Shown here: in pieces, positions 6,246 through 61,333 of the stretch
How the letters are laid out: each line of letters opens with the position of its first letter
Position numbering within the stretch: the stretch's first letter is position 1
Translations under genes and position numbers: made by a program
Notes under the pieces: generated by a model
Seen by the model: the letters and a program-made list of their open reading frames with translations, nothing else
The model's database searches: none
Told to the model about the DNA's origin: nothing
Assembly: GCA_021804785.1 (NCBI GenBank)
Contig: JAJZGY010000007.1
Span: forward strand, 1 to 62,340
Source: Pseudomonadota bacterium
GTDB lineage: Bacteria; Pseudomonadota; Alphaproteobacteria; Micropepsales; Micropepsaceae
DNA length: 62,340 nucleotides
Direction: 5' to 3'

Positions 6246-6322
<77 letters not shown>

Positions 6323-33602: not shown

Positions 33603-33627
33603 AAAGCCGGGCCATGTGCCCGGCTTT
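33603..33627 (+). promoter_or_regulatory. Perfect ten-pair hairpin in the argD leader
   Basis: AAAGCCGGGC (33603-33612) and GCCCGGCTTT (33618-33627) pair perfectly around loop CATGT, and the following bases are T-rich (TTTGTCGTTT). It lies 40 bases before the argD start. It could be an attenuator of arg genes or the terminator of a short RNA from the gcrA-argD gap. Confidence 0.5.
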
Positions 33628-33667
33628 GTCGTTTGCGCCAACAGATGAGACATGAAGGAGAACTGCT

Positions 33668-35790: not shown

Positions 35791-35878
35791 AAGGCCAAAC
35801 GCCTTCGGGCGTCAAGCTGATCGCGCCCGGGCCGCTCAGCTTGAATTGGGCCGTGGGCTCGCCATATAGCACTTTGTC

Positions 35879-36805: not shown

Positions 36806-36808
36806 CGC

Positions 36809-37681: not shown

Positions 37682-37841
37682 GAGCGGCCTCCCGACTATT
37701 CGGCCTGGCCCGCCTGGGTAGCGGAGCAGCCCGCGCACCTTCGATATCGTCCAGCCTATACCTATTTTGTTGCAGTACCAGCCGGTCGAACTGCAAACAC
37801 GTCTTGTTGCGGCGCAAAATGGACTGGCGATTGGCAAGCTA

Positions 37842-37874
37842 CCGATACCATGACATTCTGTCATGGTATCGGTT
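37842..37874. promoter_or_regulatory. 33-bp perfect inverted repeat upstream of CYP153
   Basis: ACCGATACCATGACA (37842-37856) and TGTCATGGTATCGGT (37860-37874) are exact reverse complements around TTC. The right arm ends 19 bases before the P450 start. The length and symmetry match a TetR-type or similar operator; it lacks a T run, so a terminator is less likely. Confidence 0.7.
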
Positions 37875-37893
37875 CCCATAGAGGAGGTTCGTG

Positions 37894-39141
37894 ATGAGCA
37901 GTGTCGCGCGTTCGCTTGAGGAACAGTCCGTTCAGGATGCCTGGGGCATGCCGCTCGAGAAGATCAATGTTGCGGACGCACTGCTGTTCAAGAACGACGC
38001 GATGTGGCCTTATTTCGAGCGGCTACGTAAGGAGGACCCGGTACATTACTGCCCTGAACACGAGTTTGGTCCCTACTGGTCGATCACCAAGTACAACGAC
38101 ATCATGAAGGTGGACAGCAACCATCAGGTGTTTTCCTCCGAGCCTGCGATCACCATTGTCGATCCCATGGACGACTTTAAGCTGCCCATGTTCATCGCGA
38201 TGGACCCGCCCAAGCACGATGCCCAGCGCAAAGTTGTGACGCCGGCGGTCTCGCCCATGAATCTGGAACGCCTGGAACCAGTCATTCGGGAGCGCGCCGG
38301 CCGCATTCTGGATTCGCTGCCACGCGGTGAAGAGTTCGACTGGGTGGACAAGGTCTCAATCGAGCTCACCACGATGACGCTGGCGACGCTGTTCGATTTT
38401 CCCTGGGAGCAACGGCGCAAGCTGACCTATTGGTCGGACATTGCAACGGCCAATCCCAAGTCATCGAGTTTTATCAGCCATGAGCATCGCCGGGCCCAGC
38501 TGATGGAATGCGTTGATTATTTCACGCACTTGTGGAATGAGCGTGTCAATGCCGAACCCAAAAGCGATCTGATTTCCATGCTGGCCCATGGCGAATCAAC
38601 CCGCAACATGGATCGCATGGAATATCTGGGAAACCTCGTGCTTTTGATCGTCGGCGGCAATGATACAACCCGCAACACGATTACCGGCAGCGTGCTCGCA
38701 CTCAATCAGAACCCGGATCAATATGCCAAGCTGCGCGCCAATCCTGATCTGATCCCCTCGATGGTGTCGGAAACCATTCGCTGGCAGACCCCGCTCGCCC
38801 ATATGCGGCGAAGCGCCACCCAGGACATCGAATTTGGTGGCAAGCTGATCCGCAAGGGAGACAAGGTGGTGATGTGGTATGTCTCAGGCAACCGCGATGA
38901 GGAAGTGATCGAAAATCCCAACGCCTACATCATCGACCGCCCGCGTCCGCGACAACATTTGTCCTTCGGCTTCGGTATTCACCGTTGCGTAGGAAATCGG
39001 CTTGCCGAACTGCAGTTGCGTGTGATCTGGGAAGAAATCATGGCGCGCTTCCCGCGGGTCGAAGTGGTCGGCGAGCCTGTGCGTGTCGCCTCCAGCTTTG
39101 TCAAAGGCTACGAGCACCTGCCGGTACGTATTCCAAACTAG
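37894..39141 (+). CDS. Cytochrome P450, CYP153 type (alkane/fatty acid terminal hydroxylase)
   Basis: A 415-residue P450. The I-helix GGNDTTRNT (about 254-262), ExxR in SETIRW (about 293-296) and the heme Cys in FGFGIHRCVGNRL (about Cys365) are intact. The phrases MTLATLFDFPWEQRRKL and QTPLAHMRRSAT are typical of CYP153, which hydroxylates the end carbon of alkanes, alcohols or fatty acids using ferredoxin and a reductase. Neither redox partner is adjacent. ATG 37894 is chosen with GAGGAGG (37881-37887) six bases upstream; GTG 37891 is too close. The repeat at 37842 is a likely operator. Confidence 0.92.
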   Translation: MSSVARSLEEQSVQDAWGMPLEKINVADALLFKNDAMWPYFERLRKEDPVHYCPEHEFGPYWSITKYNDIMKVDSNHQVFSSEPAITIVDPMDDFKLPMFIAMDPPKHDAQRKVVTPAVSPMNLERLEPVIRERAGRILDSLPRGEEFDWVDKVSIELTTMTLATLFDFPWEQRRKLTYWSDIATANPKSSSFISHEHRRAQLMECVDYFTHLWNERVNAEPKSDLISMLAHGESTRNMDRMEYLGNLVLLIVGGNDTTRNTITGSVLALNQNPDQYAKLRANPDLIPSMVSETIRWQTPLAHMRRSATQDIEFGGKLIRKGDKVVMWYVSGNRDEEVIENPNAYIIDRPRPRQHLSFGFGIHRCVGNRLAELQLRVIWEEIMARFPRVEVVGEPVRVASSFVKGYEHLPVRIPN

Positions 39142-39429
39142 GGCGTGGGAATTTCCGCCTGCCGTGGGCCGGAGGCGCCTGAGGCCGGGGCCATCGTCTT
39201 TGGGCTCAAGCCCGGCGCGGTCCTGGCCCGCGGCAGGCACGAGGTATCTTGAGTAATTCGCATTTCTGCCCTTCTGTCGCCGAAAAGCCTTGCCAAAATC
39301 TCCCATGAGATGTGCCTATCCCGAGCTGTGGTCGGGGCTGCCTCCGTCCGCAGCTTGGGCTATGGTGTCAGGAGGCCGCAATGATCCTTGCCCTTAGTCC
39401 CCTAAAGCTGCCCAGAGGAGCCCTTCCTG

Positions 39430-40065
39430 TTGTTTAACCACATCGTTCACACGCTTCTGGGATTCATCACCAGCCATGCTGATCTGGCGCTTCCCACGGT
39501 GTTCTTTGTCACCTTTGGGGAATCATTTGCCTTCGTCAGTCTGTTTTTTCCCGGAACAACCGTGATTCTGGCCTGTGGCGCTCTGATTGCCGCCCACGCT
39601 CTGCCGGCGTGGCCGGTCCTCATGGGGGGCATAGCCGGTGCGATTCTGGGGGATTCCTGTTCTTACTGGCTGGGGCGCCGCTATGGCCATCTGACCGAGG
39701 CGGTCTGGCCTTTTACCCGCCACCCCGAAATGTTGACACGCGGCTATGAGTTTTTTGGCCGCCATGGCACCAAGAGCATCTTTTTGGGACGTTTTCTGGG
39801 GCCATTTCGGGCGGTACTGCCATTGCTGGCGGGCATCACCAAGATGCCGTCGGCGCGCTTCTGGTTCGCCAATGTGACCTCCGCGGTCGTCTGGGTCCCC
39901 GCACTCTTGGCCCCCGGCGTCCTGGCCGGATATGGGCTGTCAATGCTGGGAACGCATCGGGACTGGATGGTGGCCGCCGGGCTTGCCATCACCCTCAGCC
40001 TGGCCGCGGCTGTGGTCCTCCTCCGGCGGCGCAACTATCTGCGTGGTCTCAAGCTCGATGCCTGA
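39430..40065 (+). CDS. DedA-family membrane protein
   Basis: A 211-residue SNARE-associated/DedA protein. Five or six membrane segments are visible, with the conserved GAIAGAILGDSCSYWLGRRYG-like region (ILGDSCSYWLGRRYG) and FLGRFLGPFRAVLPLLAG (GRF.GPxR). DedA proteins support membrane homeostasis and have been linked to lipid-carrier flipping and drug tolerance. The start is TTG 39430 with AGAGGAG about nine bases upstream. Its end overlaps the convergent small membrane gene by 31 bases. Confidence 0.93.
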   Translation: MFNHIVHTLLGFITSHADLALPTVFFVTFGESFAFVSLFFPGTTVILACGALIAAHALPAWPVLMGGIAGAILGDSCSYWLGRRYGHLTEAVWPFTRHPEMLTRGYEFFGRHGTKSIFLGRFLGPFRAVLPLLAGITKMPSARFWFANVTSAVVWVPALLAPGVLAGYGLSMLGTHRDWMVAAGLAITLSLAAAVVLLRRRNYLRGLKLDA

Positions 40066-40325
40066 GAAGGGTTCTGGCTCGCGCTCTTTGGCCTATCGTC
40101 GGGGTGGGGGCGTTGGCGCTGCTGCAGAAAGTAGATCAGACGCAGCACGATCCACAGTGGGACCGCGACAGTGCCGATCACATAGAGCGTATACTTGACC
40201 GCATCGCTGCCCATGCCGACAGCGCCCATCATGCCCGTACCAATCATCAGAATTACGAATAGCGCTGCCGCGGAGAGAGCGATCAGTCCTGCCACCCAAA
40301 GCACAGTCTTCTCGGCCCAAGTCAT
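40035..40325 (-). CDS. Small inner-membrane protein, function unknown
   Basis: A 96-residue protein with two hydrophobic helices (TVLWVAGLIALSAAALFVILMIG and YTLYVIGTVAVPLWIVLRLIY, each shown by its core) and a Pro/Arg/Ser-rich cytosolic tail. The start at ATG 40325 has GGAGGGGG just before it. It overlaps the convergent dedA gene by 31 bases at their 3' ends. I recognise no named family. A role in the envelope is the only inference. Confidence 0.7.
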   Translation of the reverse strand: MTWAEKTVLWVAGLIALSAAALFVILMIGTGMMGAVGMGSDAVKYTLYVIGTVAVPLWIVLRLIYFLQQRQRPHPDDRPKSASQNPSQASSLRPRR

Positions 40326-40561
40326 GCCCCCTCCATTTCTGTTACGCGCGCGGCCGTACCTTGGTTTGAGGCCACCGGGACGGTAGTCTTCAAGGATCGA
40401 CGGAAGGTAACGCTCCCCGGCGCCTCGACTGTTCACAATCATGAAACACAGGAGAGAAGTCCACAGGAAATATCACCTTTTGTTGATGAGAATGAAGCCG
40501 AATGGAAGTTTAGTTTCATGTTTGATGCGCTATGCGCGCGCTCTCATACAAGGACCCACCC

Positions 40562-42724
40562 ATGTCTCTTCGTTGTACGCAAACCTTGAGCCTGGCAGCA
40601 CTGCTCATGCTGGGCGCGAGCGTGAGCATAAGCACTCCAGCCGCTGCGGCCGCGAGCAATCCCTTCGCCCAGCCCAGTCCACTGCCTTTTCAGGCGCCGG
40701 ATTTTTCTAAGATCAAGAACAGCGATTATCTGCCAGCCTTCGAAGAAGGGATGAAACGCCAACGTGCGGAGATCGTGAGTATTGCCAATGATCCCGCTCC
40801 GCCCACTTTCGACAATACGCTCGTGGCGATGGAAAAATCGGGGCGCATGCTCGATCGCGTATTGGAGACTTTCTTTGGCGTCGACCAGGCTGACAGCGAC
40901 GCCACGCTTAATCGCGTGCAGGCGGATGTTGCTCCGCAACTGGCAGCGCAAGAGGACGCAATCTATCTGAACTCGAAGCTCTTCGCGCGCGTCAAGGCGA
41001 TTTATAGCCAGCGCGCACGTCTCAAACTGGATCCAGAAAGCCGCCAGCTGCTCAGGGTCTACTATCGGCAATTCGTTCACGACGGGGCCAACCTGTCACC
41101 CGCCGACAAGCAGAAGCTGAAGAAGCTCAACGAGCGCGAAGCAACGCTTGAGACTGAGTTCCAGCAGAAGTTGGTCGCGGCCACCAAGGCTGGAGCCTAT
41201 GTCACCTCCAATGTCGCCGATCTTGCCGGTCTAAGCAAAACCCAGATCGATGCCGCGGCGGCGGCTGCCAAGGCGCATGGCCTAAAAGGAAAATGGCTGA
41301 TCCCGCTGCAGAATACCACGCAGCAGCCGGTCATGGCCGAGCTGACCAATCGCGCAGTGCGCAAGAAAATTTTTGAGAATTCGTGGATGCGCGCCGAACG
41401 CGGCGATGCCAACGACACGCGAAAGGTGATCGCAGAGCTCGCCAAGCTGCGGGCGGTGAAGGCCAAGCTGCTGGGCTATCCGAGTTATGCCGATTATGAG
41501 CTTTATGATCAGATGGCCAAGACGCCCCAGAATGTTCAGCGCTTTTTGGGACAGTTGATTGGACCAGCAGCTGCCAGGGCCGCGTCCGAAGCCCAAGAAA
41601 TCCAGGCCATGATCAAAAAGGATGGGCAGACCTTCAAGCTTGAGCCCTGGGATTGGGAATATTACTCGGAGCAGGTGCGCAAGGCCAAATACAACATCGA
41701 TTCGCGTGAATTGCGGCCCTACTTTGAACTCAATCGCGTACTGAAGGATGGTGTCTTCTATGCCGCCCATGAGCTCTATGGCGTCACCTTCAAGGAGCGT
41801 CATGATCTCCCAGTCTATCAGAAGGACGTGCGAGTATTTGAGGTGTTTGACAATAACGGCAAGCCTCTCGGGCTGATCTACTTCGACTATTTCAAGCGCG
41901 ACAACAAGGAAGGCGGAGCCTGGATGAGCAACTTCGTCCAGCAGTCCAAACTCCTTGGCACAAAGGCTGTGGTTTACAACGTGGCCAATTTCACCAAGCC
42001 GGCCCCCGGCCAACCGGCTCTGCTCAGCTTTGATGATGTCACCACGATGTTTCATGAGTTCGGCCATGCCTTGAACAGCCTGTTTGCCGATCAGGAATAT
42101 GAGACATTGTCCGGCACCAACACCGCGCGCGACTGGGTCGAGTTCCCGTCGCAATTCAATGAGCACTGGGCGCTCTATCCCAAAGTGCTTGAGCACTATG
42201 CAGTCAACTACAAAACCGGAAAGCCAATCCCAGAAACGCTGGTTGAAAAGCTGCGGCACTCCCAAAGCTGGAACCAGGGCTATGATCTTGGAGAGCTTCT
42301 GGCGGCCTCTGAACTTGACATGGCCTGGCATACGCTGCCTGCCAGTGCGCCATTGCAGAATGTTGATGCCTTTGAAACCAAGGCGCTGGCAGAGAGCCAC
42401 ACCAACTTCCCGGATGTGCCGCCCCGCTATCGCTCAACCTATTTCTTGCATATCTGGGCCAATGGCTATGCTGCAGGCTACTATGCCTACCAATGGACGG
42501 CGATGCTGGACGATGATGCCTATTCCTGGATGCTGCACCATGGGGGGATGACACGGGCCAACGGACAACGTTACCGCGATCTGATTCTCGCCAAGGGCCA
42601 CAGCGAGGGCTACAACGCGATGTTCCGTTCGTTCTACGGCAGGGCTCCCGATATCAAGCCCATGCTCAAGGACCTGGGCGTGACTTCGGACCGGGCGCGT
42701 AAGCGGTCAAAGGCGAAGCACTGA
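40562..42724 (+). CDS. Exported M3-family oligopeptidase (dipeptidyl carboxypeptidase Dcp-like)
   Basis: A 720-residue thimet-type peptidase with a signal peptide (LAALLMLGASVSISTPAAA), hence periplasmic. The zinc motif HEFGH is clear (TTMFHEFGHALNSLF, near nt 42050), followed by the third ligand region and GTNTARDWVEFPSQFNEHW. The Tyr-rich substrate loop YFLHIWANGYAAGYYAY matches Dcp enzymes, which remove dipeptides from C-termini. ATG 40562 has AAGGA upstream and fits the signal peptide; ATG 40532 is an alternative. A hairpin at 42749 ends the transcript. Confidence 0.93.
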   Translation: MSLRCTQTLSLAALLMLGASVSISTPAAAAASNPFAQPSPLPFQAPDFSKIKNSDYLPAFEEGMKRQRAEIVSIANDPAPPTFDNTLVAMEKSGRMLDRVLETFFGVDQADSDATLNRVQADVAPQLAAQEDAIYLNSKLFARVKAIYSQRARLKLDPESRQLLRVYYRQFVHDGANLSPADKQKLKKLNEREATLETEFQQKLVAATKAGAYVTSNVADLAGLSKTQIDAAAAAAKAHGLKGKWLIPLQNTTQQPVMAELTNRAVRKKIFENSWMRAERGDANDTRKVIAELAKLRAVKAKLLGYPSYADYELYDQMAKTPQNVQRFLGQLIGPAAARAASEAQEIQAMIKKDGQTFKLEPWDWEYYSEQVRKAKYNIDSRELRPYFELNRVLKDGVFYAAHELYGVTFKERHDLPVYQKDVRVFEVFDNNGKPLGLIYFDYFKRDNKEGGAWMSNFVQQSKLLGTKAVVYNVANFTKPAPGQPALLSFDDVTTMFHEFGHALNSLFADQEYETLSGTNTARDWVEFPSQFNEHWALYPKVLEHYAVNYKTGKPIPETLVEKLRHSQSWNQGYDLGELLAASELDMAWHTLPASAPLQNVDAFETKALAESHTNFPDVPPRYRSTYFLHIWANGYAAGYYAYQWTAMLDDDAYSWMLHHGGMTRANGQRYRDLILAKGHSEGYNAMFRSFYGRAPDIKPMLKDLGVTSDRARKRSKAKH

Positions 42725-42748
42725 CTATCTCAGCTTAAGAATCAAATA

Positions 42749-42780
42749 GGGGGGCGTGGAGCGTCCCCCACTCTTCTTTC
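42749..42780 (+). terminator. Probable terminator after the M3 peptidase gene
   Basis: GGGGGGCG and CGTCCCCC form an eight-pair stem with one G-U pair and loop TGGAG, followed by a T-rich stretch (CTCTTCTTTC), 25 bases after the stop. Confidence 0.55.
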
Positions 42781-42911
42781 GGGGGGCTGGCGAGTAGGTT
42801 TCCGCCGCCGGGGCGGAGTGGCCCCACGTGGCACGGGGAGAAAGATCCCTCGTTTAGACGGCTATTGACCCGCGCCCGGCTGTTCGTCATAACCGCGGCC
42901 TCACTTGGAGT

Positions 42912-42986
42912 GCGGGCGTAGCTCAGGGGTAGAGCATAACCTTGCCAAGGTTAGGGTCGCGCGTTCGATTCGCGTCGCCCGCTCCA
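42912..42986 (+). tRNA. tRNA-Gly (GCC)
   Basis: A 75-base tRNA with encoded CCA. Acceptor GCGGGCG pairs with CGCCCGC, discriminator T, anticodon GCC at 42944-42946 in loop TTGCCAA, and T loop GTTCGATTC. It marks the left edge of the accessory region: a conjugation-gene remnant begins 445 bases downstream. Confidence 0.97.
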
Positions 42987-43431
42987 AATGTTATCTTTTA
43001 ATTTCAGTTAGTTAAGTGACGCCGCCTCTTGCGGTGGGGGCTATTTTGTATCATCCCGGAAGCTTGGCGGAAGCATATGATCTCCCCGTCTGGAGCTGCT
43101 CCACTGCTGTCCAGGGGGTTGGACCAATTTTCCGAACTGAGAAGGGTACCCTGGTTTCAAAAAGCGAAAAGTGCTCCGCTGTTTTGCGGCTGTTGTATTT
43201 TCTGTCAGGGACCGCGAACAGTTTTGGGGTGTTCCAACGTTTTCAATCGCAGCCTTGACCATCGTTTCTGGTCGCTATTCTCCAATGCCAATCATGGCAC
43301 GGCTGTTACCGGCGCAGCTTGACGAAATCGTGTTGTTGCCCGGGAGGACGATTTTGGTCTTCGTAATCCTAAATTCTCGTCCAATGTGATCGTACATATT
43401 AGCCACTAGAGAGGCGTCTTGCGGGACTCAC
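42987..43431. other. Gap behind tRNA-Gly, no gene seen
   Basis: 445 bases with lower GC than the core. Short open frames exist but have no ribosome site or recognisable family. By position this is where an integrase would be expected if the tRNA is an attachment site; none is recognisable. Confidence 0.5.
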
Positions 43432-43646: not shown

Positions 43647-44867
43647 TCAGCCCCACAAAGACGACAAGGGCGCCGCGGCCAGCTTGTCGCCGAAGGGCAC
43701 GAGATCCGTGCTGTCGTAGAGCACGACGCCAAAGGCAAATCGGTCCTTGCACGCCTCCGCCAATGTACGCAGGCCGGTGAAGTCGCCGGATTTCACCGTG
43801 GCCGCGGCCTTCACCTCGATGCCGACGATCATGCCGTCGTCGCGCTCCAAAACGATGTCCACCTCGTGCATTTGCTGGTCGCGGAAATGATACGGCGTCA
43901 GCCGCAGGTCCGAGCCGGTCATGAGCTTCAGCACCTCGGAGAACACGAAGCTCTCCAGCAGCGCGCCGAACGCCCCGCGATTCGCCTTCACACGATTGAA
44001 GCTCAATCCGCGCGTTGTGGCGAGCAGCCCGGAATCGAGAAAATGCAGTTTCGGCGTCTTGGTGATCCGCTTCAGCGCGTTCGTGTACCAAGGCTGCAAT
44101 GTCGAAACGAGGAACACCTGTTCGAGCAGCGTGACGTAGCGCTGCCCGGTCTTGTGGCTGACGTTGATGCTGCCGCCGAACTGCGAGTAGTTGACCAATT
44201 GCCCGGAGTGCTCCGCCACGAGGCGGACGAACTTCGGCAGCTCCGTCAGTTTCTCAATGTCAGCGATATCCCGAAGGTCGCGGGTGAGGACCGAGGTCAG
44301 ATAGGATCGTGCCCAATCCTGGCGCCGCCGCTCGCTGTCGCGGCTGATCGCTTCGGGAAAGCCGCCGACGAGCACGAGCTTGGCGAGATCGTCACCGACG
44401 ATTGCCGCCTGGTCGCCCTGCAGTTTGCCGTCGAACAGGCGTTCCAGGAATCGCGGCGTCGTGCCTGTTATCTCGGCGCGAGCCAGTGGCAGCATGTGGA
44501 TGGTTTCCATCCGCCCGGCCAGGCTGTCGGAGACACGCGGCAGCGTGAGGATGTTCGCGGAGCCGGTTAGCAGGAAGCGGCCCGGGCGATAATCCTCGTC
44601 CACGGTCTTCTTTATTGCCAGCAACAGGTCTGGCGCGCGCTGGATCTCATCGATGATCGCCTGGTCCAATCCGCGAATGAAGCCCACCGGGTCGGACTGT
44701 GCGGCATCGAGCGTCGTCTGATCGTCGAGGGTGATGTAAGTCCGCCCGGCCTCTCCCATCTTCCGCACCAGCGTGGTCTTGCCGGCGCGGCGCGGACCGA
44801 CGATCAGCACCACCGGGGTGTCTGAAAGGGCTTCCTCCGCCCGCCGCTCGACAAATCGCTCGTACAT
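43647..44867 (-). CDS. AAA ATPase with C-terminal DUF4143 domain
   Basis: A 406-residue protein. Walker A GPRRAGKTT (about 24-32), Walker B AIIDEIQRAP, and the sensor segment LLTGSANI belong to the AAA_14 ATPase domain. The C-terminal DUF4143 nuclease-like part has LETFVFSEVLK-like LLESFVFSEVLKLM, HFRDQQMHEVDIVLE and GIEVKAAATVKSGDFTGL, resembling a restriction-endonuclease fold with Asp-Glu-Lys. Such proteins are frequent cargo of genomic islands; their role is unsettled. ATG 44867 is preferred over 44906. It stands alone between the trbB stump and the tRNA-Tyr remnant. Confidence 0.9.
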   Translation of the reverse strand: MYERFVERRAEEALSDTPVVLIVGPRRAGKTTLVRKMGEAGRTYITLDDQTTLDAAQSDPVGFIRGLDQAIIDEIQRAPDLLLAIKKTVDEDYRPGRFLLTGSANILTLPRVSDSLAGRMETIHMLPLARAEITGTTPRFLERLFDGKLQGDQAAIVGDDLAKLVLVGGFPEAISRDSERRRQDWARSYLTSVLTRDLRDIADIEKLTELPKFVRLVAEHSGQLVNYSQFGGSINVSHKTGQRYVTLLEQVFLVSTLQPWYTNALKRITKTPKLHFLDSGLLATTRGLSFNRVKANRGAFGALLESFVFSEVLKLMTGSDLRLTPYHFRDQQMHEVDIVLERDDGMIVGIEVKAAATVKSGDFTGLRTLAEACKDRFAFGVVLYDSTDLVPFGDKLAAAPLSSLWG

Positions 44868-45210
44868 GCCGATTCCATGGTCCCGAAAATTGGAACTATG
44901 GACCATGATAATTGGAAGTCAATGGCATGTTGGTTGGGATCAGGTCAGCCGCTTGATTCGAGGCGGAAGGCCTCCGCCAGCCGGTGCCCAGTGACCGGGC
45001 CCTTCGTTTCTGCCGGGCCTCCCGAAGAGCCCCTGAACGAGAGTGCAGACCCGGCTTATTGATGATCGACAGGTGACGAGCCCGAATTCTTGTCGATGTC
45101 ACGCTGCCGCCAATGTGTCGCGAGCGTCGTTCCTACGTAAGCGCGCGCTTACGAAGTTCCAGACGCTTAATGCCAGACACGGCGTAAACGTGCCCACTCA
45201 CGGACTTACG
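44868..45210. other. Gap upstream of the ATPase gene, no gene seen
   Basis: About 340 bases with a GC-rich hairpin GGCGGA/TCCGCC near 44964-44980 and the 18-bp palindrome at 45136. No coding frame with support. Confidence 0.5.
45136..45153. repeat. 18-bp perfect palindrome
   Basis: CGTAAGCGCGCGCTTACG is its own reverse complement. It lies 58 bases from the CCA end of the tRNA-Tyr remnant, in a non-coding gap; it could be a protein-binding or recombination site. Confidence 0.6.
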
Positions 45211-45929: not shown

Positions 45930-46886
45930 GTGTACCCTGGACGTTACAACTGGGGGCGCTACGCCCTGATTGTCGGTCTGACGTTCACGTTGCTCGCGTT
46001 GCTCGCTCCGACGGCGCGAGCAGATCCGGACGCCGATGGCTGTCACGACAGTTCCCTGATTACCCGTTATCCCGGATCATACATCGTCCGTTGTTTCCAT
46101 ACGGAATTTGACCAATTTATTTTGCCGCTAGGGCCAGTTGTCGCCAATAACAAGCTGGCGAAGAGCAAGAAGATCCAGGGTAAGATTACGCGTATCATGT
46201 ATGTTGCCCCCGATCTGGTCTCGCCTCTCGAGATTTGGAAAAACTACGAAAATGCCATCAAGAACGCGGGCTTCACGGTTCTGTTCAAATGCCAAAGTGA
46301 TGCCTGCCAAAACGGCGACTGGGACGTCAATCTTTTCCAGGATCAGGAAGACCCCTGGTACAACTACGGCGGCTACCAGTATCAACTCTCTGCCGAACGG
46401 TCGGGTCCAAACGGGACGGTCTACATCAGCCTGCACATGACCAACAAACCCGTCCAGACAACGCTGGACATTATTGAACCGCATGCAATGAAAACTGGTT
46501 TAGTGCAGGTAAACGCGGCCGCGATGTCCGCCGCTCTTGCGCAGAGCGGGCACATTGCACTCTACGGTATCTACTTTGACACCGGGAAAGCCGATCTCAA
46601 ACCTGCCTCCGATGCAACGCTACAGGAAATCGGCGCCTTGCTGAAGCAGCAGCCGGCGCTCAAGCTGTACGTCGTCGGCGACACCGACAATGTGGGCAGC
46701 TTCCTATCCAACATGAATCTTTCTAGCCGTCGGGCGGCTGCGGTGGTGGCCGCGTTGACCGGACGCTATGGAATTGACTCGCGGCGCTTGAAGGCGGTCG
46801 GCATCGGCCCGGTCGATCCAGTAAGCACCAATCAAACGCCGGAAGGCCGGAGCCGGAACCGGAGAGTTGAGCTGGTCGAGCAATAG
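45930..46886 (+). CDS. Exported DUF4892-like/OmpA-domain protein
   Basis: A 318-residue protein with a signal peptide (YALIVGLTFTLLALLAPTARA). Residues about 40-200 resemble the DUF4892 region found before OmpA domains (YENAIKNAGFTVLFKCQ). The C-terminal OmpA domain is complete: GIYFDTGKADLKPAS, VVGDTDNVGSFLSNM (peptidoglycan-binding Asp), NLSSRRAAAVVAAL and EGRSRNRRVELVEQ (Arg). It would attach non-covalently to peptidoglycan. GTG 45930 has GGGAGG seven bases upstream. It leads a run of five exported-protein genes and is the likely cell-wall anchor of whatever they build. Confidence 0.88.
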   Translation: MYPGRYNWGRYALIVGLTFTLLALLAPTARADPDADGCHDSSLITRYPGSYIVRCFHTEFDQFILPLGPVVANNKLAKSKKIQGKITRIMYVAPDLVSPLEIWKNYENAIKNAGFTVLFKCQSDACQNGDWDVNLFQDQEDPWYNYGGYQYQLSAERSGPNGTVYISLHMTNKPVQTTLDIIEPHAMKTGLVQVNAAAMSAALAQSGHIALYGIYFDTGKADLKPASDATLQEIGALLKQQPALKLYVVGDTDNVGSFLSNMNLSSRRAAAVVAALTGRYGIDSRRLKAVGIGPVDPVSTNQTPEGRSRNRRVELVEQ

Positions 46887-46988
46887 CTGAAACGTCAGCG
46901 GGGGCCAGAAGATGATTGAGCCGCTCCCCCAAGGTCACAGGGCCTTGCTGCCGATTGCTCGTAGTGCTGTGCGCTCGGGGATGCGACC

Positions 46989-48134
46989 ATGAACGCGCGT
47001 AGGGTTTTTCATGGTTTACCACCAGTAGCAGCTCTTGCCGCTGTGTTTTTCCTTATCGCACCGTCGGTCAATGCGGGCGCACCCGGCACCGCGCATGGCA
47101 TCGATACGACCACGTTGTCCAGCGCGCTGGCAAACGCTCTCGGTGGACTGGCGAACGTCAAGAAAATTCATACTCTGCATTTCGAATTTATGGTGCTGTC
47201 CTTTCGCGCCGCACCATGGAACAGCGTGCAAACCTTCCAGGGGGCCATGCACCTGGCGGGAGAAGAGTGGTTAAATTCGGACGGTGACGATCGTGTTGAA
47301 ATGCGCTCGACTGCCATGCAGGCGCCGCCAAGCCTGGAGATTTTGGAGTCAGGACAGCAGAGCGTCTCGGTACGCATTGCGGTTACCGATTCGACACGAT
47401 ACGTGCCAGTCAGCAGGGCCCGCAAGTGCGCGGGCCCGTCAACAACCGCGCTTTGCGTGAACGTACCGGAATTGTACTTCGACAAGGTCAGTCCCACCAT
47501 TCCGCCCCACGCCGGTCTGTTTGCCCAGGAAGCGAATTTCTCCGGAACGATGCGCGAGAGCGATACATGCGGTGGAATTGCCGGGATCACTCCGATTTCC
47601 GACAAGGGTACTCAATTCGCCATCACCGTGAGGTCTCTCCATGTCGGAAATTGCGTTGTCCGCATTTCGTCGAACACGCCTCAAGGATGGATGCTCGTCG
47701 GAGGGCAAGGCTCTCCGAGCGGAAATTCGACTGGACAGTTGCAAGGTCCGGACCTGGAGCGTGAAATTTCGCACGACTACTGGACGACGTTTGCATATCT
47801 GACGTCGTCAAGTCTCCCCGGGAAAGTGGTTTACAAGCCGCAAAAAGGGGCGGCCGAATATTTGCTGGAGATGGATCCAGAAGGTGGAGAACCGATCAAG
47901 GCATACCTCAATCAGAAAACGTTCCTGCCAGACAAGGTCCAGGTCGGGGATGACCCAAACAAAATGGTGATTGTGCCTAAAGACTGGCGTTCCGTCAGCG
48001 GTGTGCGATTCCCGTTCGACATGACCGTGGAGCTTTTCGACTCGCAGATGGTACTCCACTACACCTTCACAAATATCCAGGTGAACGAGAACCCGCCGAA
48101 AGATGCCTTTAAACAGCCCACGCCTACACTTTGA
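46989..48134 (+). CDS. Exported protein with LolA-like C-terminal region
   Basis: A 381-residue protein with a signal peptide (ALAAVFFLIAPSVNA). The last 110 residues read YLLEMDPEGGEPIKAYLNQ, DWRSVSGVRFPFDMTVEL and TNIQVNENPPKDAFKQP, the beta-strand pattern of LolA/outer-membrane lipoprotein-sorting-like proteins. The middle has four Cys that could pair (KCAGPS, LCVN, DTCGG, GNCVV). Second gene of the five-gene exported cluster, 102 bases after the OmpA-type gene. A periplasmic carrier or binding role is inferred from the fold only. Confidence 0.72.
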   Translation: MNARRVFHGLPPVAALAAVFFLIAPSVNAGAPGTAHGIDTTTLSSALANALGGLANVKKIHTLHFEFMVLSFRAAPWNSVQTFQGAMHLAGEEWLNSDGDDRVEMRSTAMQAPPSLEILESGQQSVSVRIAVTDSTRYVPVSRARKCAGPSTTALCVNVPELYFDKVSPTIPPHAGLFAQEANFSGTMRESDTCGGIAGITPISDKGTQFAITVRSLHVGNCVVRISSNTPQGWMLVGGQGSPSGNSTGQLQGPDLEREISHDYWTTFAYLTSSSLPGKVVYKPQKGAAEYLLEMDPEGGEPIKAYLNQKTFLPDKVQVGDDPNKMVIVPKDWRSVSGVRFPFDMTVELFDSQMVLHYTFTNIQVNENPPKDAFKQPTPTL

Positions 48135-48154
48135 AACGCAGAGGAGAGATGCTC

Positions 48155-49465
48155 ATGAGGTACGTTGCTTGCTGCCTCCTGTTGGCGTTCCTTTCGCCAG
48201 CGCTGATGGCGCAGACGCTTCCGGATACCGACGGATTCGTCGGCGCGTATGTCGAGGGAAACGTCGCGGGTGGCGACACTGGAAAGCCGCTGGTTGGCGC
48301 CAAGATCGATGTCATCGGAGCAAAGGTATCAAAGACCGGTGTGAGGGCCAATTCCGGCTGCGGGGCCGGCTTTGCCATGTCTGCTGCCAACGGAAATTTT
48401 TCCGTGGGCGTCGGGCAAAACAACAAGTGTGTCGATAAAAAGCATCCTATCAACGGAAAATATTACGTTTCGGTGTCAAAGCGCGGTTATCTCCCTCAGC
48501 AGAAATTCATCGACTTCGGCACGCAGAGGACCAACGTCATCGGCTCGCTGACTTTTCGCCTCGATCCCGCCCACGCCAGCATTCAGGGCCAAGTTGTTGG
48601 ACCGGATGGAAAAGGTCTACCTTATGCGTACGCATGGCTGATGAAAGATCCCTTTGCCATGGTCATGCAACCGCCGAAGGGGCATTCCCTTCCATTGTAC
48701 AGTGAATTGCCAATGGTGCGGGCGGACGGCAACGGAAAATTCAACATCCCGGTTTCGCCTGGCAACTATGTTGTGCTGGCGGGGAAGGCGGGATACGAAT
48801 TGGTGACCAAAACCGTCGATTCCTTCGCGCAGCAGGTATATCAGCGAATGGCGGCGAATCCCTACTTGCCGCCGCAGACGCGTGCGAAGTTGGGAGCGAT
48901 GAACCAGCCACAGTTGGGTGTTCATGTCAGTGTGGCCACCGATGGGATCGCGAGCGCCCATCTCGCGATGGTGAAGGCGTCGCCGACGGCCGTGCCGCCC
49001 GGGACGATGAAGCAGCCAAAATTCAGGCCGTTCAAAATAGTTCTTGCCGGACAAGCCCGCTCTTCGCCCAACAACGTCCTGTTCTTCGTCTCGCAGGCTC
49101 CAGGTGGATCGGAGAATGGCTCGGTGGCACTGGGCATCGTGCGCACTACAACGCTACTCGGTACGGGAAAGATCGATCCGGCGCGCGTTACGTCCCTCAA
49201 TTTTCTGCAATACGGTTATCCGGGCGAGGTTGGGTGTCGCCACCGGCCTGGACACTTCAACAATGACTCTTGGTCCTTTTTTTGCGAAGATCCGGTACTC
49301 TCATTTACCGACCCGACGGCCAAACCCGGTACGGCCTATTACTATTACATTGTCGAGGGCGCGCCGTATGGGATCGGCCCGGGCGGAACATCCAATCTCA
49401 TGCAATCTGGCACGCCATACTCGAACGGCGTGCAGATAGTGACTCAGGGAGAGAGGATGCCATGA
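48155..49465 (+). CDS. Exported protein with carboxypeptidase-regulatory (Ig-like) repeats
   Basis: A 436-residue protein with signal peptide (YVACCLLLAFLSPALMAQ). Two regions look like carboxypeptidase-regulatory beta-sandwiches: GNVAGGDTGKPLVGAKIDV and ASIQGQVVGPDGKGLPYAYAW (shortened), ending VSPGNYVVLAGKAGYE. The C-terminal part ends in a Tyr/Gly-rich strand (GTAYYYYIVEGAPYGIGPGG). ATG 48155 is chosen with GAGGAG seven bases upstream. Its stop overlaps the next start (ATGA), so the genes are coupled. No named family beyond the sandwich fold. Confidence 0.75.
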   Translation: MRYVACCLLLAFLSPALMAQTLPDTDGFVGAYVEGNVAGGDTGKPLVGAKIDVIGAKVSKTGVRANSGCGAGFAMSAANGNFSVGVGQNNKCVDKKHPINGKYYVSVSKRGYLPQQKFIDFGTQRTNVIGSLTFRLDPAHASIQGQVVGPDGKGLPYAYAWLMKDPFAMVMQPPKGHSLPLYSELPMVRADGNGKFNIPVSPGNYVVLAGKAGYELVTKTVDSFAQQVYQRMAANPYLPPQTRAKLGAMNQPQLGVHVSVATDGIASAHLAMVKASPTAVPPGTMKQPKFRPFKIVLAGQARSSPNNVLFFVSQAPGGSENGSVALGIVRTTTLLGTGKIDPARVTSLNFLQYGYPGEVGCRHRPGHFNNDSWSFFCEDPVLSFTDPTAKPGTAYYYYIVEGAPYGIGPGGTSNLMQSGTPYSNGVQIVTQGERMP

Positions 49466-49893
49466 GGCGCGCTCTCCTGATAGCGCTTATCGCCGGTGCG
49501 GCACTTTCATCGACGGTAAGCGCGGAACCGCTGGATCCGTGCACGCTCCTGACGCAAGCGCAAGTGTCGCAAGCCTTCGGGGAGACTGCAATGCCCGCAC
49601 AGCGGCAGCAGAGTGCACCGGGTCATCCGATCTGTGCATGGCTCAACGCTTCGCAATCGAAAACACTATATGTGATGATCGCATCCCGGAAAACGATGCC
49701 CCCTCCGTGGTGGAAGACGGCTGTTCCGGTCAAGGGTATCGGCGACAAGGCGCTATGGTCGTCCGGATGGATATACGTGCGGAAGCACACCAATCGCGTT
49801 GCGATCGAATTAATTCTGTCGCCAGACAGCGAGAAACGCATGGATCCGCAATTGCTCTGGCTCGCAAAGCAAGTTGTTGCGCGCGTGCCATAA
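49462..49893 (+). CDS. Small exported protein, DUF3558-like
   Basis: A 143-residue protein with signal peptide (LLIALIAGAALSSTVSA). The mature start DPCTLLTQAQVSQAFGE, with a Cys pair (DPC and HPICAW) and LYVMIASRK, resembles DUF3558-type small exported proteins, whose function is unknown. ATG 49462 overlaps the stop of the upstream gene by four bases, implying translational coupling. Fourth gene of the exported cluster; the next starts 22 bases downstream. Confidence 0.75.
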   Translation: MRRALLIALIAGAALSSTVSAEPLDPCTLLTQAQVSQAFGETAMPAQRQQSAPGHPICAWLNASQSKTLYVMIASRKTMPPPWWKTAVPVKGIGDKALWSSGWIYVRKHTNRVAIELILSPDSEKRMDPQLLWLAKQVVARVP

Positions 49894-49915
49894 GGCATAT
49901 TTTAGAGAAGTCATG

Positions 49916-50563
49916 ATGCGTAATCTGTTGGCGCCAATCTACGTCCTGCTAGTCCTACTCGCTGCGTTCGTGAGCACTCAAGCGCGTGCCGTGATGCCAC
50001 CGCATGGCCCCTATGCCAGGGATTGCCACCCCGACAGTGTCCGCGCCGTCGTGCACGGAGGCGTAACGATAGCGTTCGATTGCTTCAGCAGTGATGGGGA
50101 CGGCGCCATGTATGGATCGCGCATCCGGATTTCTCCGAACGAGGAGCGTTACTCGACCGGCGTCGCAACGTCGGCAGCGCTGAACATCTTCATTTCGGCA
50201 GATGCCGGCTGCCCCGCGCTGCATGATGGCAGTACCATGGCGTTGAACAGCCCATGCCTCCTGATCGAGGAAGCTGGCAGGTTGCCGGCCAATGGCCTGG
50301 CATTCGCGAGTACGTGCAAATTTAAGTCCAGGTCGCCGATGTTGAAGCTCTTTCCGCCGGAGTGCAGCATGGGAATGAGGGCTGACGATACGTCGGGATT
50401 GATTACATTCACCCATTGGTCCACGCAACGGGGCGGGCAGATCGCATTCACGTTTTCGCCACATGCGCGGTTAACGGAGTTTGTTTCAAACCCCGGAGCC
50501 GGGCATGGCGAATCGGAGGTCGCCATGCAGATATCAGGTTCTGCGATTGTCACCCTGGATTGA
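49916..50563 (+). CDS. Exported Cys-containing protein of unknown function
   Basis: A 215-residue protein with signal peptide (APIYVLLVLLAAFVSTQARA). The mature part has six Cys (ARDCHP, AFDCFS, AGCPAL, SPCLLI, STCKFK, PECSMG), an even number compatible with three disulfides in the periplasm. ATG 49916 has AGAGAAG seven bases upstream; ATG 49913 is equally possible. Last gene of the exported cluster; an IS21 remnant begins 36 bases later, so the cluster may have been longer. No family recognised. Confidence 0.7.
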   Translation: MRNLLAPIYVLLVLLAAFVSTQARAVMPPHGPYARDCHPDSVRAVVHGGVTIAFDCFSSDGDGAMYGSRIRISPNEERYSTGVATSAALNIFISADAGCPALHDGSTMALNSPCLLIEEAGRLPANGLAFASTCKFKSRSPMLKLFPPECSMGMRADDTSGLITFTHWSTQRGGQIAFTFSPHARLTEFVSNPGAGHGESEVAMQISGSAIVTLD

Positions 50564-51759: not shown

Positions 51760-52200
51760 CTAGTTGTGTGATTCTAACGCATGTTTCGCGCGAGCGACTT
51801 TTTTGAGGATTTCGCCGGCGGATTTGATCCACACGATGGGTTTTGGCTCGGCATTGTGATTGTCAAGGTATTCCACGATGGCGGTTTCGAGTTCGGCGAC
51901 GCTTTTGAATACGCCGCGTCGGATACGCTTTTCGGTGATCAGACCGAAGAAGGGCTCGACCTGATTGAGCCAGGACGCCGAGGTGGGCGTGAAGTGCATG
52001 CGGAACCTCGGATGTTTGGCCAACCATGCTTTGACAGTGGGGTGCTTGTGGGTGGTGTAATTGTCGGCGATCAGGTGCAGGTCGAGCGCCTTGGGCGTGG
52101 CCCGGTCGATGGCCCTCAGGAACTTGAGCCATTCCTGGTGACGATGGCGCGGCATGCATGGCCCGATGACGGTGGTTTTGTTGACGGCGGCCGTGACGGC
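51760..52200 (-). mobile_element. IS630-family transposase remnant (C-terminal part)
   Basis: The frame 51760-52155 reads MPRHRHQEWLKFLRAIDRAT, LHLIADNYTTHKHPTV, HFTPTSASWLNQVEPFF, RRGVFKSVAELETAI and PIVWIKSAGEILKKVARA, the second half of an IS630-type DDE transposase with its second Asp (ADNY) and Glu. Similarity continues upstream in the frame to about 52200 (TTVIGPCM), where the sequence breaks just before the 3' end of the Fic gene. The N-terminal HTH half is missing. Confidence 0.82.
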
Positions 52201-52257: not shown

Positions 52258-53748
52258 CTATTTCGCGGGCCAGGTCCGCCAGTCGACGCGCAACTTGGCG
52301 TCCTCGCCTTCCGCAAATGCATTGTTTTTTTCCAGTATGGCTTGTGCGCTGTGCAGGTCGCGCCAGTCGATGCCGTGCGTGTAGCGCTGCGCCACATCGA
52401 GCATGCGGATCAGGGGCGCCGTCTCACCATTCTGAGAGAACGCCTTAAGCGGACCCAGATAGTCGGTGCGGAACGCGGTCGGCACGATGATGCGTTCCTG
52501 GCCCGCCGCCACAAGCTCGGCGTTCATCATGATCCGGCCAATCCGGCCATTGCCGTCGGCAAAGGGATGCACTTCGCTGACCAGTATCATCATGAAGGCA
52601 GCCTTCTGAAACGGGTCGGCCAGCCCTTCCAGAAACTCGAAGCCCTTTTCCAGCGTTCCGATCACCAGCTCCGGGGGCACGAATACCGTCATGCCGGCCT
52701 GATTGAATTTGGTCTTGAAGCTGCCCGGGTTCGTGTTCGGCCGAGCTTCCATGATGACCGCGTGACGCCACCGCAGGAAGTCTATGAACTCCGTAATGTC
52801 CTTGGGCGTGCGTTGCATTTCGCCCTGATCCGAGACGATACGAAACGTGCCCAGCACATCATGCGCATCTTCCGGACGTTCGGCGGGGATGACGCCGTTG
52901 AAGATGATGTCTTCGGCTTCCTTGACACTGAATTCTGTGCCTTCGATGAAGTTCGAGAAGTAAGCCTCGAAAAAGGCGAGCGTGCCGTTGGCGTCCGGGT
53001 CGCGCTCTCGCGCGGGCCGGTCGGGCGAGATGTTTTCGCGCAAAGCGCGGAACAGAGTTTCGAACAGACGCACCCGATCCGGATCGAAGGGTTGCCCGGC
53101 AGCGCGTGCCTTGCCCGCATTGCTCTGCATCTTCACGTCGTGCGTGCCGAGTAAGGTGCCAATGAGCGCGCTCAGGTCTTCGTATTCTTTCTGCAGACCG
53201 AGCCGAGGCGCGATCGCGCGCGCGTCGTTGCGCAGCTTGTTGACTGCATCCTCGCCCTGGCGGCGGATGAGTGCGTCCAGGCGTGTTTCGAGTTCGGCGC
53301 GCGTGAGCGTGCGCGGGGTCCGGTTGTCGCGCGCGCGCGACGCGCGCATGTTTTCCAGATAGGCGCGCGGCACCGACGACAGGCGCGCGCCGCCCACGAA
53401 GGGCTTGTCGCTGTCGAGCGGCCCTGGGCCTTTGCGCGGCCGGAACGTCACGCCGGGCAGTTCGGTGTCGCGCTTCTTGTTTGAGATCAGGAACACCGAG
53501 CCGTCTTCGGCCGGTTGGCTCTCCAGTGCCGTGCGGTCGGCGATCAGGGCGTCCGGATAATAGCCCGCAATCAGTCGCGACCAGTTGCGGCGGACCAGCT
53601 TGGCGGGATCCTCCTTGAGGTTGCGGCTGTAGAGCCGGGAGGCGAGCCGACGCAGTTGGCCGCGCTCCACCGCGTCCGACACCAGCTTGGAAATCGCGGT
53701 ATCGGAGACGAAAATCTCAGGGAGGTTGGCGACGGAAAATTCGGGCAT
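52258..53748 (-). CDS. Fic protein with N-terminal winged-helix (AbiEi-like) domain
   Basis: A 496-residue protein. Residues 1-130 look like the AbiEi/antitoxin-4 type winged helix (FVSDTAISKLVSDAVERGQL, ADRTALESQPAEDGSVFL). The Fic domain follows, with core motif HPFADGNGRIGR (394-405) and an inhibitory helix motif SNFIEG (265-270, S/TxxxE G/N), so it is a self-inhibited class II Fic AMPylator. ATG 53748 has AAGGAG seven bases upstream. Its promoter has a TTTAAG/CTTAAA array (53768-53876) that the winged helix could bind. It would AMPylate a cellular protein; target unknown. Confidence 0.92.
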   Translation of the reverse strand: MPEFSVANLPEIFVSDTAISKLVSDAVERGQLRRLASRLYSRNLKEDPAKLVRRNWSRLIAGYYPDALIADRTALESQPAEDGSVFLISNKKRDTELPGVTFRPRKGPGPLDSDKPFVGGARLSSVPRAYLENMRASRARDNRTPRTLTRAELETRLDALIRRQGEDAVNKLRNDARAIAPRLGLQKEYEDLSALIGTLLGTHDVKMQSNAGKARAAGQPFDPDRVRLFETLFRALRENISPDRPARERDPDANGTLAFFEAYFSNFIEGTEFSVKEAEDIIFNGVIPAERPEDAHDVLGTFRIVSDQGEMQRTPKDITEFIDFLRWRHAVIMEARPNTNPGSFKTKFNQAGMTVFVPPELVIGTLEKGFEFLEGLADPFQKAAFMMILVSEVHPFADGNGRIGRIMMNAELVAAGQERIIVPTAFRTDYLGPLKAFSQNGETAPLIRMLDVAQRYTHGIDWRDLHSAQAILEKNNAFAEGEDAKLRVDWRTWPAK

Positions 53749-53767
53749 TAAGCGCTCCTTCTGGACC

Positions 53768-53876
53768 ACCTTAAAGAAAATGTGATGTTTAAGGTACTTA
53801 AAATCCGAATAAACGGGATTTAAGATGTGGCATATTGGAAATAACCTGACTGGATGCCGAAATTTAGGTGTTTAAG
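53768..53876 (-). promoter_or_regulatory. TTTAAG/CTTAAA repeat array in front of the winged-helix Fic gene
   Basis: CTTAAA at 53770 and 53797 and TTTAAG at 53788, 53819 and 53871; the pair 53788-53802 is a perfect dyad (TTTAAG-GTA-CTTAAA), and the copies at 53768 and 53788 share the longer TTTAAGGT. A second dyad AAATCC/GGATTT spans 53801-53821. Likely the autoregulatory operator; binding by the gene's own winged helix is inference. Confidence 0.55.
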
Positions 53877-54446: not shown

Positions 54447-55622
54447 GTGACGAGCGGAGAGAACCAAAGGCTCGGGGCACATGTTGAAACGAGCGCGGGA
54501 GGCGAGCGCGTGCGCGCCTATGTGCCTGCCCCGCTGCCGCCAAATCCGCCGCTCGAACTCGGACGGTTCATGCAGGTCTACGAACGTGCCATCGCCGCGG
54601 TCGGGCGCCTCGACGGCGTGACGACGATCCTGCCTTCCACGCCTTTGTTCCTCTACATGTACGTCCGCAAGGAGGCCCTGCTGTCCTCTCAGATCGAGGG
54701 GACGCAATCCTCGCTGTCGGATCTGCTGCTGTTCGAAAATCACGAGGCGCCGACGGCCCTTCTCGACGACGTCACCGAGGTCTCGAACTACGTTGCGGCG
54801 ACCCTGCATGGTGTCTCCCGGATGCGGGGCGGATTTCCCCTGTCGCTCCGGCTGATCCGCGAAATGCACGCCATCCTGCTCAAGTCGGGACGGGGCGCTG
54901 CAAAGCAACCGGGCGAGTTTCGCCACTCGCAGAACTGGATCGGCGGGACCCGGCCCGGCAACGCGCTGTTCGTGCCGCCGCCGCCGAACCGGCTGGACGA
55001 ATGCCTCGATGCGCTCGAGCGCTTCCTGCACAGCGAGGATGCGGCGCTGCCCCCGCTCATCCGGGCGGGCCTGGCCCACGTCCAGTTCGAGACGATTCAC
55101 CCTTTTCTCGACGGCAACGGGCGCCTGGGTCGGCTGCTCATCACGCTGATCCTGTGCGAGGCGGGGGTGCTGCGCGAGCCGATCCTCTATCTCAGCCTGT
55201 TCCTGAAATCCCGGCGCGACGACTATTACCGGCTTCTGCAGGAGGTCCGCCAGGCTGGGACGTGGGAGACCTGGATGGAGTTCTTTCTGACCGGCGTCGC
55301 GGAGACCGCCGAACAGGCCGCTGCGACAGCGCGTGATCTGATCGCCATGTTCGGTGCTCACCGACTTGAGATCGCCGGCCTCGGCCGCGCGGCCCCATCC
55401 GCGCTCCGAGTCCACGAATTGATGCAGGCTAGCCCGATCGTCACCATCCAGACTGTTTCCGAGAAACTCGCCGTTTCGTTCCCGACCGCCAGCACGGCGC
55501 TGGATAACCTCGCCAAGATCAACATCGTGCGCGAGACCACGGGACGGCGACGCGGCCGGATTTACGCCTATTCCGACTATCTGGCCTTGCTCGAGCGCGG
55601 CACCGGCCCACTACCGATATGA
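54447..55622 (+). CDS. Fic protein with C-terminal winged-helix domain
   Basis: A 391-residue Fic protein of the common bacterial layout: Fic N-terminal domain (LELGRFMQVYERAIAAVGRL), inhibitory helix SSQIEG (80-85), Fic core HPFLDGNGRLGR (218-229) and a C-terminal winged helix (VSEKLAVSFPTASTALDNLA). It probably AMPylates a target and may repress its own promoter. GTG 54447 has AAGGATC upstream. It lies 700 bases from the other fic gene, on the opposite strand, with a different domain order, so they are not recent duplicates. Confidence 0.92.
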   Translation: MTSGENQRLGAHVETSAGGERVRAYVPAPLPPNPPLELGRFMQVYERAIAAVGRLDGVTTILPSTPLFLYMYVRKEALLSSQIEGTQSSLSDLLLFENHEAPTALLDDVTEVSNYVAATLHGVSRMRGGFPLSLRLIREMHAILLKSGRGAAKQPGEFRHSQNWIGGTRPGNALFVPPPPNRLDECLDALERFLHSEDAALPPLIRAGLAHVQFETIHPFLDGNGRLGRLLITLILCEAGVLREPILYLSLFLKSRRDDYYRLLQEVRQAGTWETWMEFFLTGVAETAEQAAATARDLIAMFGAHRLEIAGLGRAAPSALRVHELMQASPIVTIQTVSEKLAVSFPTASTALDNLAKINIVRETTGRRRGRIYAYSDYLALLERGTGPLPI

Positions 55623-57325: not shown

Positions 57326-57643
57326 TTACGGCGCCGAGCTCCGGCGCAGTCCGTCGAGGAAAAATTTGAGCCCGCCGATAACGATGAGCCCACCGACGAA
57401 CGCCATGATGGTTAAGACATGCGGCAGTGATGCCGGGAACATCGCCATCACGCGGTTGAAATGGCCGGTGGAGGTCAAGAGCGCCGGCCCCATCAGCTGC
57501 AGCCCCAACAGCATAACCATGAGGCCGAACATGTGCTGTGGCTCGGACGGGACCTGGCGCCGCTCATAGACGCCTGACCTGCGCCAAAGACGAGAGCTCG
57601 TTGAATAGCCAGGGAAATAATACGCATTGCGGACGCTACGCAT
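57326..57643 (-). CDS. Small membrane protein, function unknown
   Basis: A 105-residue protein with a basic, Tyr-rich N-terminal 30 residues and two membrane helices (MFGLMVMLLGLQLMGPALL and VLTIMAFVGGLIVIGGLKFF). The start at ATG 57643 has GGGAGG five bases upstream, which supports it as a real gene. It lies downstream of the LysR gene on the same strand, 116 bases away. No family recognised. Confidence 0.6.
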   Translation of the reverse strand: MRSVRNAYYFPGYSTSSRLWRRSGVYERRQVPSEPQHMFGLMVMLLGLQLMGPALLTSTGHFNRVMAMFPASLPHVLTIMAFVGGLIVIGGLKFFLDGLRRSSAP

Positions 57644-57759
57644 AAATCCTCCCATGAACTTTTATCGTTCTTGGGACAAAACCTAGCACAAAATGTCGCA
57701 CGTGCACGACCTTTTGTCGCAGATTCGATAAAAATCGACTCCAAGCCGCGGCAAGATCC

Positions 57760-60970: not shown

Positions 60971-61333
60971 ATGACCTATGAGGAATTCAACAGCTTCTGC
61001 CGCGCACTACCTGCCACTACTTATGTCATTCAGTGGGGTGGGGCACATGTGTGGAAGGTTGGTGGAAAGGTGTTTTCGATCGGCGGCAGGCAGAACGATC
61101 AGCCGAGTTTTACTTTCAAGGTGAGCGATGTGGCCTATGAAATGCTCAAGGAACAGGCGGGTTTGCGTCCGGCCCCCTACCTGGCCTCGCGGGGTATGAA
61201 ATGGATCCAGCATTACGCCAAGCCCGGATTGAGCGATAACGAGCTACGCGATTACATCCGCCGGTCGCACGTCATCGTCGCGCTGGGACTGTCGAAAAAG
61301 CGACGGGCAGAACTTGGTCTTTTGAGTAAATAA
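60971..61333 (+). CDS. MmcQ/YjbR-family protein
   Basis: A 120-residue protein with the YjbR/CyaY-like fold: TYEEFNSFCRALPATT, HVWKVGGKVFSIGG, LASRGMKWIQHYAKPGLS and LRDYIRRSHVIVALGLSKK match the family along its length. Members are small cytosolic proteins annotated as DNA-binding; the biological role is unclear. The start at ATG 60971 gives the family N-terminus. It is monocistronic. Confidence 0.9.
   Translation: MTYEEFNSFCRALPATTYVIQWGGAHVWKVGGKVFSIGGRQNDQPSFTFKVSDVAYEMLKEQAGLRPAPYLASRGMKWIQHYAKPGLSDNELRDYIRRSHVIVALGLSKKRRAELGLLSK

Follow-up and report, generated by a model that had tools for sequence, protein, structure and literature searches.

Among the closest described counterparts of the protein that heads the gene set reported here is PA1624 of Pseudomonas aeruginosa, a periplasmic protein in which a Mog1p/PsbP-like N-terminal domain is combined with an OmpA-like C-terminal domain and for which the passages available of its description give the function as not known (PMC7716261). 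The gene set lies in a stretch of 62,340 nucleotides from a Pseudomonadota bacterium of the family Micropepsaceae (GenBank assembly GCA_021804785.1, contig JAJZGY010000007.1, positions 1 to 62,340), referred to at its full length as the window, and consists of five open reading frames (ORFs) on the + strand at 45930-50563, termed P1 to P5. P1 has the same order of parts as PA1624, an exported DUF4892-like front followed by an OmpA-type domain; in PA1624 it is the DUF4892 domain that is Mog1p/PsbP-like (PMC7716261). The first four genes recur in the same order in a second genome and are under purifying selection, and we consider it highly probable that they form a cassette under joint selection. 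The five ORFs are placed as follows.

45930..46886, + strand: P1, exported DUF4892-OmpA protein, 318 amino acids, GTG start
46989..48134, + strand: P2, exported orphan protein, 381 amino acids, 4 mature cysteines
48155..49465, + strand: P3, exported protein with a CarboxypepD_reg domain, 436 amino acids, 4 mature cysteines
49462..49893, + strand: P4, small exported DUF3558-like protein, 143 amino acids, 2 mature cysteines
49913..50563, + strand: P5, exported orphan and neighbour of the recurring set, 216 amino acids, 6 mature cysteines

For P3, P4 and P5 the later ATG was chosen as start. P1 and P2 are separated by 102 bases and P2 and P3 by 20; the start of P4 overlaps the stop of P3 by 4 bases (ATGA), and 19 bases separate P4 from P5. 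Judged from the sequence alone, this spacing favours an operon for P2-P5; purine-rich stretches can be seen by eye ahead of the starts of P1, P3 and P4, and we infer that genes 1-4 are co-transcribed. All five N-termini are signal-peptide-like by a simple home-made rule. The same rule is passed by 16 of 51 non-overlapping window ORFs of at least 120 amino acids, including P1, P2, P3 and P5 (P4 is outside this count, displaced there by another frame), so that 12 of the 47 others pass it. Mature cysteines number 4, 4, 4, 2 and 6 from P1 to P5, an even number in each, and in GC content the five genes (57.0%) are close to the window (59.3%). Neither Pfam nor NCBIfam places an enzyme, transporter or regulator among the five. 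A first-pass annotation of this DNA, made from the sequence without database searches, had described exactly this arrangement: five same-strand genes with three tight junctions, a signal peptide on each, a six-cysteine protein at the end, and neither enzyme nor transporter nor regulator in the group. On all these points our analysis agrees with it.

The evidence that carries the cassette comes from a scan of contigs with P3, which used short exact peptide patterns and hence detects close relatives only. It found one relative, in the metagenome-assembled genome (MAG) Proteobacteria bacterium JA3.bin20, on contig JAJZCS010000218.1 (4,066 bases). On this contig the C-terminal 101 residues of P1 are followed by complete P2, P3 and P4 in the order of the window, with gaps of 85 bases between P1 and P2 and 21 between P2 and P3 and an identical ATGA overlap between P3 and P4. 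Protein identities between the two genomes are 83% for the C-terminal 101 residues of P1, 68% for P2, 77% for P3 and 77% for P4, and the JA3.bin20 partners of P2, P3 and P4 retain each of the mature cysteines. The nonsynonymous and synonymous substitution rates (dN/dS, NG86 method) are 0.086/1.176 for the P1 piece, 0.198/1.332 for P2, 0.144/1.255 for P3 and 0.15/1.281 for P4; YN00 agrees for P2, P3 and P4 (P3 0.151/0.989). Over genes 1-4, dN is thus 0.07-0.15 of dS, at a dS of about 1-1.4, which is near saturation, and the four genes are under purifying selection. As their order recurs elsewhere with low dN/dS, the grouping of genes 1-4 exceeds chance. After P4 the JA3.bin20 contig continues with a Yip1-domain gene instead of P5, and a search of the whole JA3.bin20 genome for P5 gave no match at E<=0.1. 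The first-pass annotation named neighbours that are not conserved together elsewhere as what would refute its reading. For genes 1-4 the comparison gives no such refutation, since they stand together in one further genome; P5 is missing there, which narrows the unit with support from five genes to the first four.

The host of this second copy seems to belong to another family, as judged from two comparisons. A DnaE2 piece of JA3.bin20 is 53, 54 and 56% identical to G020, G027 and G002, three genomes of the window's genus (congeners) that share 75-79% among themselves and that stand in for the window, the window genome's own DnaE2 being left out; against G060 and G086, each from a further family, its identity is 59-61%. 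The second comparison concerns the gene beside the cassette.

3439-4065 of JAJZCS010000218.1, + strand: Yip1-domain gene

At E<=1e-20 this gene is matched neither by the window's genome nor by any of four listed congeners, and within the class it matches 5 of 385 genomes at 34-42% identity. On that contig the set has a GC content of 55.5% and the Yip1 part one of 66.2%, and GC at third codon positions (GC3) is about 0.6 in the cassette and 0.85 in the Yip1 gene. A host of another family, as suggested here, would imply transfer of the set.

P1 matches the Pfam OmpA model (PF00691) at 1.5e-19 with 70.6 bits against a cut-off of 27.2, and residues 213-315 match the periplasmic domain of PA0833 (6jfw, 4e-16) and YiaD (2k1s, 7.8e-20); NCBIfam returned OmpA-type names, for P1 alone of the five proteins and below cut-off among the 25 of 38 matches listed. 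Binding of peptidoglycan by an Asp/Arg pair is established for the OmpA domain of OmpA proteins. Asp253 and Arg268 of P1 are invariant in 14 aligned relatives, and the OmpA domain of P1 looks like a peptidoglycan anchor. The front of P1 matches DUF4892 (PF16234) at 3.8e-5 with 23.7 bits, under the cut-off of 28.8, and a full-length P1 relative in the congener G002 passes that cut-off. In the earlier reading of P1 as an OmpA-type anchor with a DUF4892-like front, the OmpA half thus lies above its cut-off and the DUF4892 half below. Among 60 congeners the DUF4892 model matches two genomes, that of the window and, with two copies, G002. Across the class, 148 of 385 genomes match P1 at E<=1e-8, most of them only in the OmpA domain; one-piece matches (starting no later than residue 27 and reaching at least residue 316) occur in nine other genomes of eight families, at 34-42% identity. 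The OmpA part of P1 is 83% identical to its JA3.bin20 partner, compared with at most 51% among the other matches listed, and being nearest to that partner this P1 goes with the cassette. An assignment to Zorya was considered and rejected: the PADLOC match of P1 to ZorB/MotB is confined to the OmpA domain, and the ZorA model has no match among the eight proteins given to PADLOC.

P2 to P5 are far less readily placed. P3 passes the cut-off of CarboxypepD_reg with a partial match (PF13620; 8.2e-8, 32.9 bits against 32.3), and its JA3.bin20 partner matches the same model at 8.3e-12 with 45.7 bits, in line with its first description as carboxypeptidase-regulatory-like. For P4, first described as DUF3558-like, the match to PF12079 (4.4e-8) reaches 33.7 bits, just under the cut-off of 34.1, and covers only model positions 37-96 of 173; for the JA3.bin20 partner the score is 29.0 bits against the same cut-off, over positions 39-96 of 173. 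The LolA-like label proposed for P2 is not backed by a profile: Pfam gave no match at E<=1 and NCBIfam one unrelated weak match, so that a single marginal match, to the unmodelled domain of a G028 protein described below, is all that the label has behind it. P2 and P5 have no Pfam match and no NCBIfam, PHROGs or PADLOC family match, and PHROGs and PADLOC gave nothing for any of P2-P5. PDB sequences gave no match at E<=5 for P2 and P5 and chance-level matches for P3 and P4. A model of P5 from its single sequence has a mean predicted local distance difference test score (pLDDT) of 39.2 and is unusable. P4 showed no resemblance to the P1 family when profiles were compared (0.4%), and the first and second parts of P3 show no repeat relation.

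Relatives of genes 2-4 are rare. Single-sequence searches of 100 genomes matched three with P2 (the window's genome, the N-terminal domain of a protease in G028 and a frame interrupted by three stops) and two with P3 (the window's genome and a frame interrupted by six); for P3 this search and the short-pattern contig scan make up the coverage. The P2 profile matched 3 of 398 genomes across the phylum, namely its own and two frames with stops, and the P4 profile 1 of 385 across the class, its own. Weak matches of P2 in G060, G379 and G080 and of P3 in G069 are frames with 2-6 stops and were discarded as noise. Searches of plasmids and scans of viral contigs with P2, P3, P4 and P5 returned nothing. 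For P3 and P4 no relative beyond JA3.bin20 appeared in genome, plasmid or viral searches, of which those with P3 detect close relatives only, and genes 2-4 behave as orphans in the searches made. The G028 protein is encoded on the minus strand (4879-7032 of its region) and combines a retropepsin-like protease with a PDZ domain. Its N-terminal domain, which has no Pfam or PDB match, is 31% identical to P2 residues 278-365 at a marginal E of 2.8e-4 per genome over 100 genomes, and hhalign gives 91.9%; we take this marginal resemblance to the C-terminal part of P2 as a lead only.

We propose that genes 1-4 constitute a rare, horizontally transferred cassette, to which P5 would be a local addition or neighbour. 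P1-P4 would be periplasmic after export and would probably carry disulfide bonds; the OmpA domain of P1 would bind peptidoglycan and present the N-terminal DUF4892 domain, and P2, P3 and P4 might assemble with or near P1 into a wall-tethered envelope complex. Such a complex could bind a ligand or stabilise the envelope and so confer a niche-dependent benefit. A joint envelope function of the four proteins is, in our judgement, slightly favoured, and the full explanation, from transferred cassette to wall-tethered complex, is evenly balanced between holding and failing. That P2 itself binds a ligand we regard as rather improbable. What the data show directly is the gene order, the overlap, the purifying selection, the second genome with the set, the OmpA domain with its invariant Asp/Arg pair and the signal-like N-termini; physical association, ligand binding and benefit are inferred.

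The genomic setting is that of a variable region, with the following features around the set.

42912..42986, + strand: tRNA-Gly (gcc), by ARAGORN and Rfam; left edge of the variable region
43647-44906, - strand: AAA_14/DUF4143 protein, PADLOC match to PDC-S01 with 562.8 bits
50600..51136, + strand: IS21-type remnant (IstB_IS21), Pfam 7.7e-7
51760..52155, - strand: transposase fragment (DDE_3), Pfam 4.1e-13
52258-53769, - strand: second Fic-domain protein, 503 amino acids, partial SoFic match with 61.3 bits
54447-55622, + strand: Fic_N/Fic protein, PADLOC match to SoFic with 396.5 bits over nearly its whole length

DNA similarity to the congener G020 (85 and 83%, 28241-42988) stops 2 bases past the tRNA-Gly and returns in patches at 57340-57742, 60980-61321 and 61760-62186, while similarity to G005 (79%) stops at 42986, the end of the tRNA. 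Synteny thus breaks at the tRNA-Gly end in both congener regions holding that tRNA, which places the set in a variable region; three further congener regions match the M3 peptidase gene only and are uninformative on the junction, as they hold no tRNA there. The tRNA-Gly end looks like a variable site within the genus. In G020 other genes follow the tRNA-Gly, and in the window the AAA_14/DUF4143 gene sits directly inside the junction, PDC-S01 being a candidate defence family only. The first-pass annotation had placed the set between mobile-element debris and suggested transferable cargo. The debris is present on the right side (IstB_IS21, DDE_3), but the left side holds the AAA/DUF4143 gene and the tRNA-Gly. 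The recurrence in an apparently unrelated host is in favour of cargo, but an integrated element is not proven, because neither a repeat of the tRNA end nor an integrase family was found.

Several observations weigh against a transferred four-gene cassette with a joint function. An exact 14-base repeat of the end of the tRNA-Gly does not occur elsewhere on the contig, and Pfam finds no integrase family among the 20 island ORFs. Genes 1-4 are known from two occurrences only, and the second is a 4-kb MAG contig at a coverage of 2.4 that begins inside gene 1, so that recurrence of the DUF4892 half and of the upstream side is not covered. In addition, the GC3 of 0.85 in the Yip1 gene disagrees with the 0.55 of the bin's DnaE2. 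The set is absent from other congeners in the P2 search (59 congeners listed), which makes it dispensable. A promoter may lie in the 102 bases between P1 and P2; promoter- and terminator-like sites do not exceed their frequency in shuffled sequences. The structure model of P2, from a two-row alignment, is unusable at a mean pLDDT of 29.1. Finally, P1 relatives lack P2-P5 nearby, within about 5-8 kb on each side, in 12 of 12 neighbourhoods (those of the nine one-piece relatives, one partial relative in G193 and two in G002), and because they stand alone in all twelve, a DUF4892-OmpA protein does not need P2-P5.

This last observation also speaks for the alternative that fares best, which we consider possible though unlikely: the genes would have been gathered by transfer and selected separately, as independent exported accessory proteins (for adhesion, ligand binding or stress) with no joint mechanism. 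It is in keeping with the difference in P5 between the two genomes and with the 102-base separation of P1 and P2, but it does not readily account for order, spacing and the P3-P4 ATGA overlap having been kept at a dS of about 1-1.4 next to different flanks. Less probable still is that the JA3.bin20 occurrence is a binning or assembly artefact derived from a close relative of the window, the set then being a genus-level accessory operon. The binning is indeed uncertain, given a short contig of low coverage whose GC3 pattern is discordant with the bin's DnaE2; against an artefact stand the Yip1 gene, unmatched in the window's genome and the four congeners at the threshold given above, and synonymous sites near saturation, and even if the contig were misbinned, the four genes would still stand together a second time, next to new flanks. 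An envelope-based defence or counter-stress module (directed at phage adsorption, DNA entry or membrane damage) near defence-like genes of the tRNA-Gly region appears very unlikely, since beside the SoFic match at 54447-55622 and the PDC-S01-type AAA/DUF4143 protein at 43647-44906, which speak for it, P2-P5 have no PADLOC match, P1 matches ZorB/MotB over the OmpA domain only, PDC-S01 is but a candidate and neighbourhood is weak evidence. We likewise give little credence to the reading that genes 1-4, placed in a tRNA-Gly region next to these defence-like genes, are a mobile module of a kind not yet described whose periplasmic proteins modify the outer envelope, for example so as to resist phage adsorption, DNA entry or membrane stress.

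The proposed cassette of genes 1-4 is of interest since gene sets that encode exported proteins only, with no enzyme or transporter, resist annotation and mostly end up labelled hypothetical. A four-gene order found in apparently unrelated hosts and under strong selection offers a defined unit for finding the partners of DUF4892-OmpA proteins. The view of the first-pass annotation that the set matches no known system stands, as the literature searches made found no described counterpart; what is new is the combination of genes and the orphan families rather than any demonstrated function. Compared with what is known, P3 resembles CarboxypepD_reg (PF13620) and P4, just below the cut-off, DUF3558 (PF12079) at the level of domain matches only, and P2, unlike the retropepsin-like/PDZ protease of G028, has no protease or PDZ domain in Pfam. 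P1 resembles the PA0833-type OmpA C-like peptidoglycan-binding proteins (PMC5974059) over its OmpA domain only, and differs from them in its DUF4892-like front. The available passages on PA1624 name no partners like P2-P4 (PMC7716261). They describe its OmpA-like domain as having no glycan-binding motifs (PMC7716261), whereas P1 combines a full OmpA match with the invariant Asp/Arg pair.

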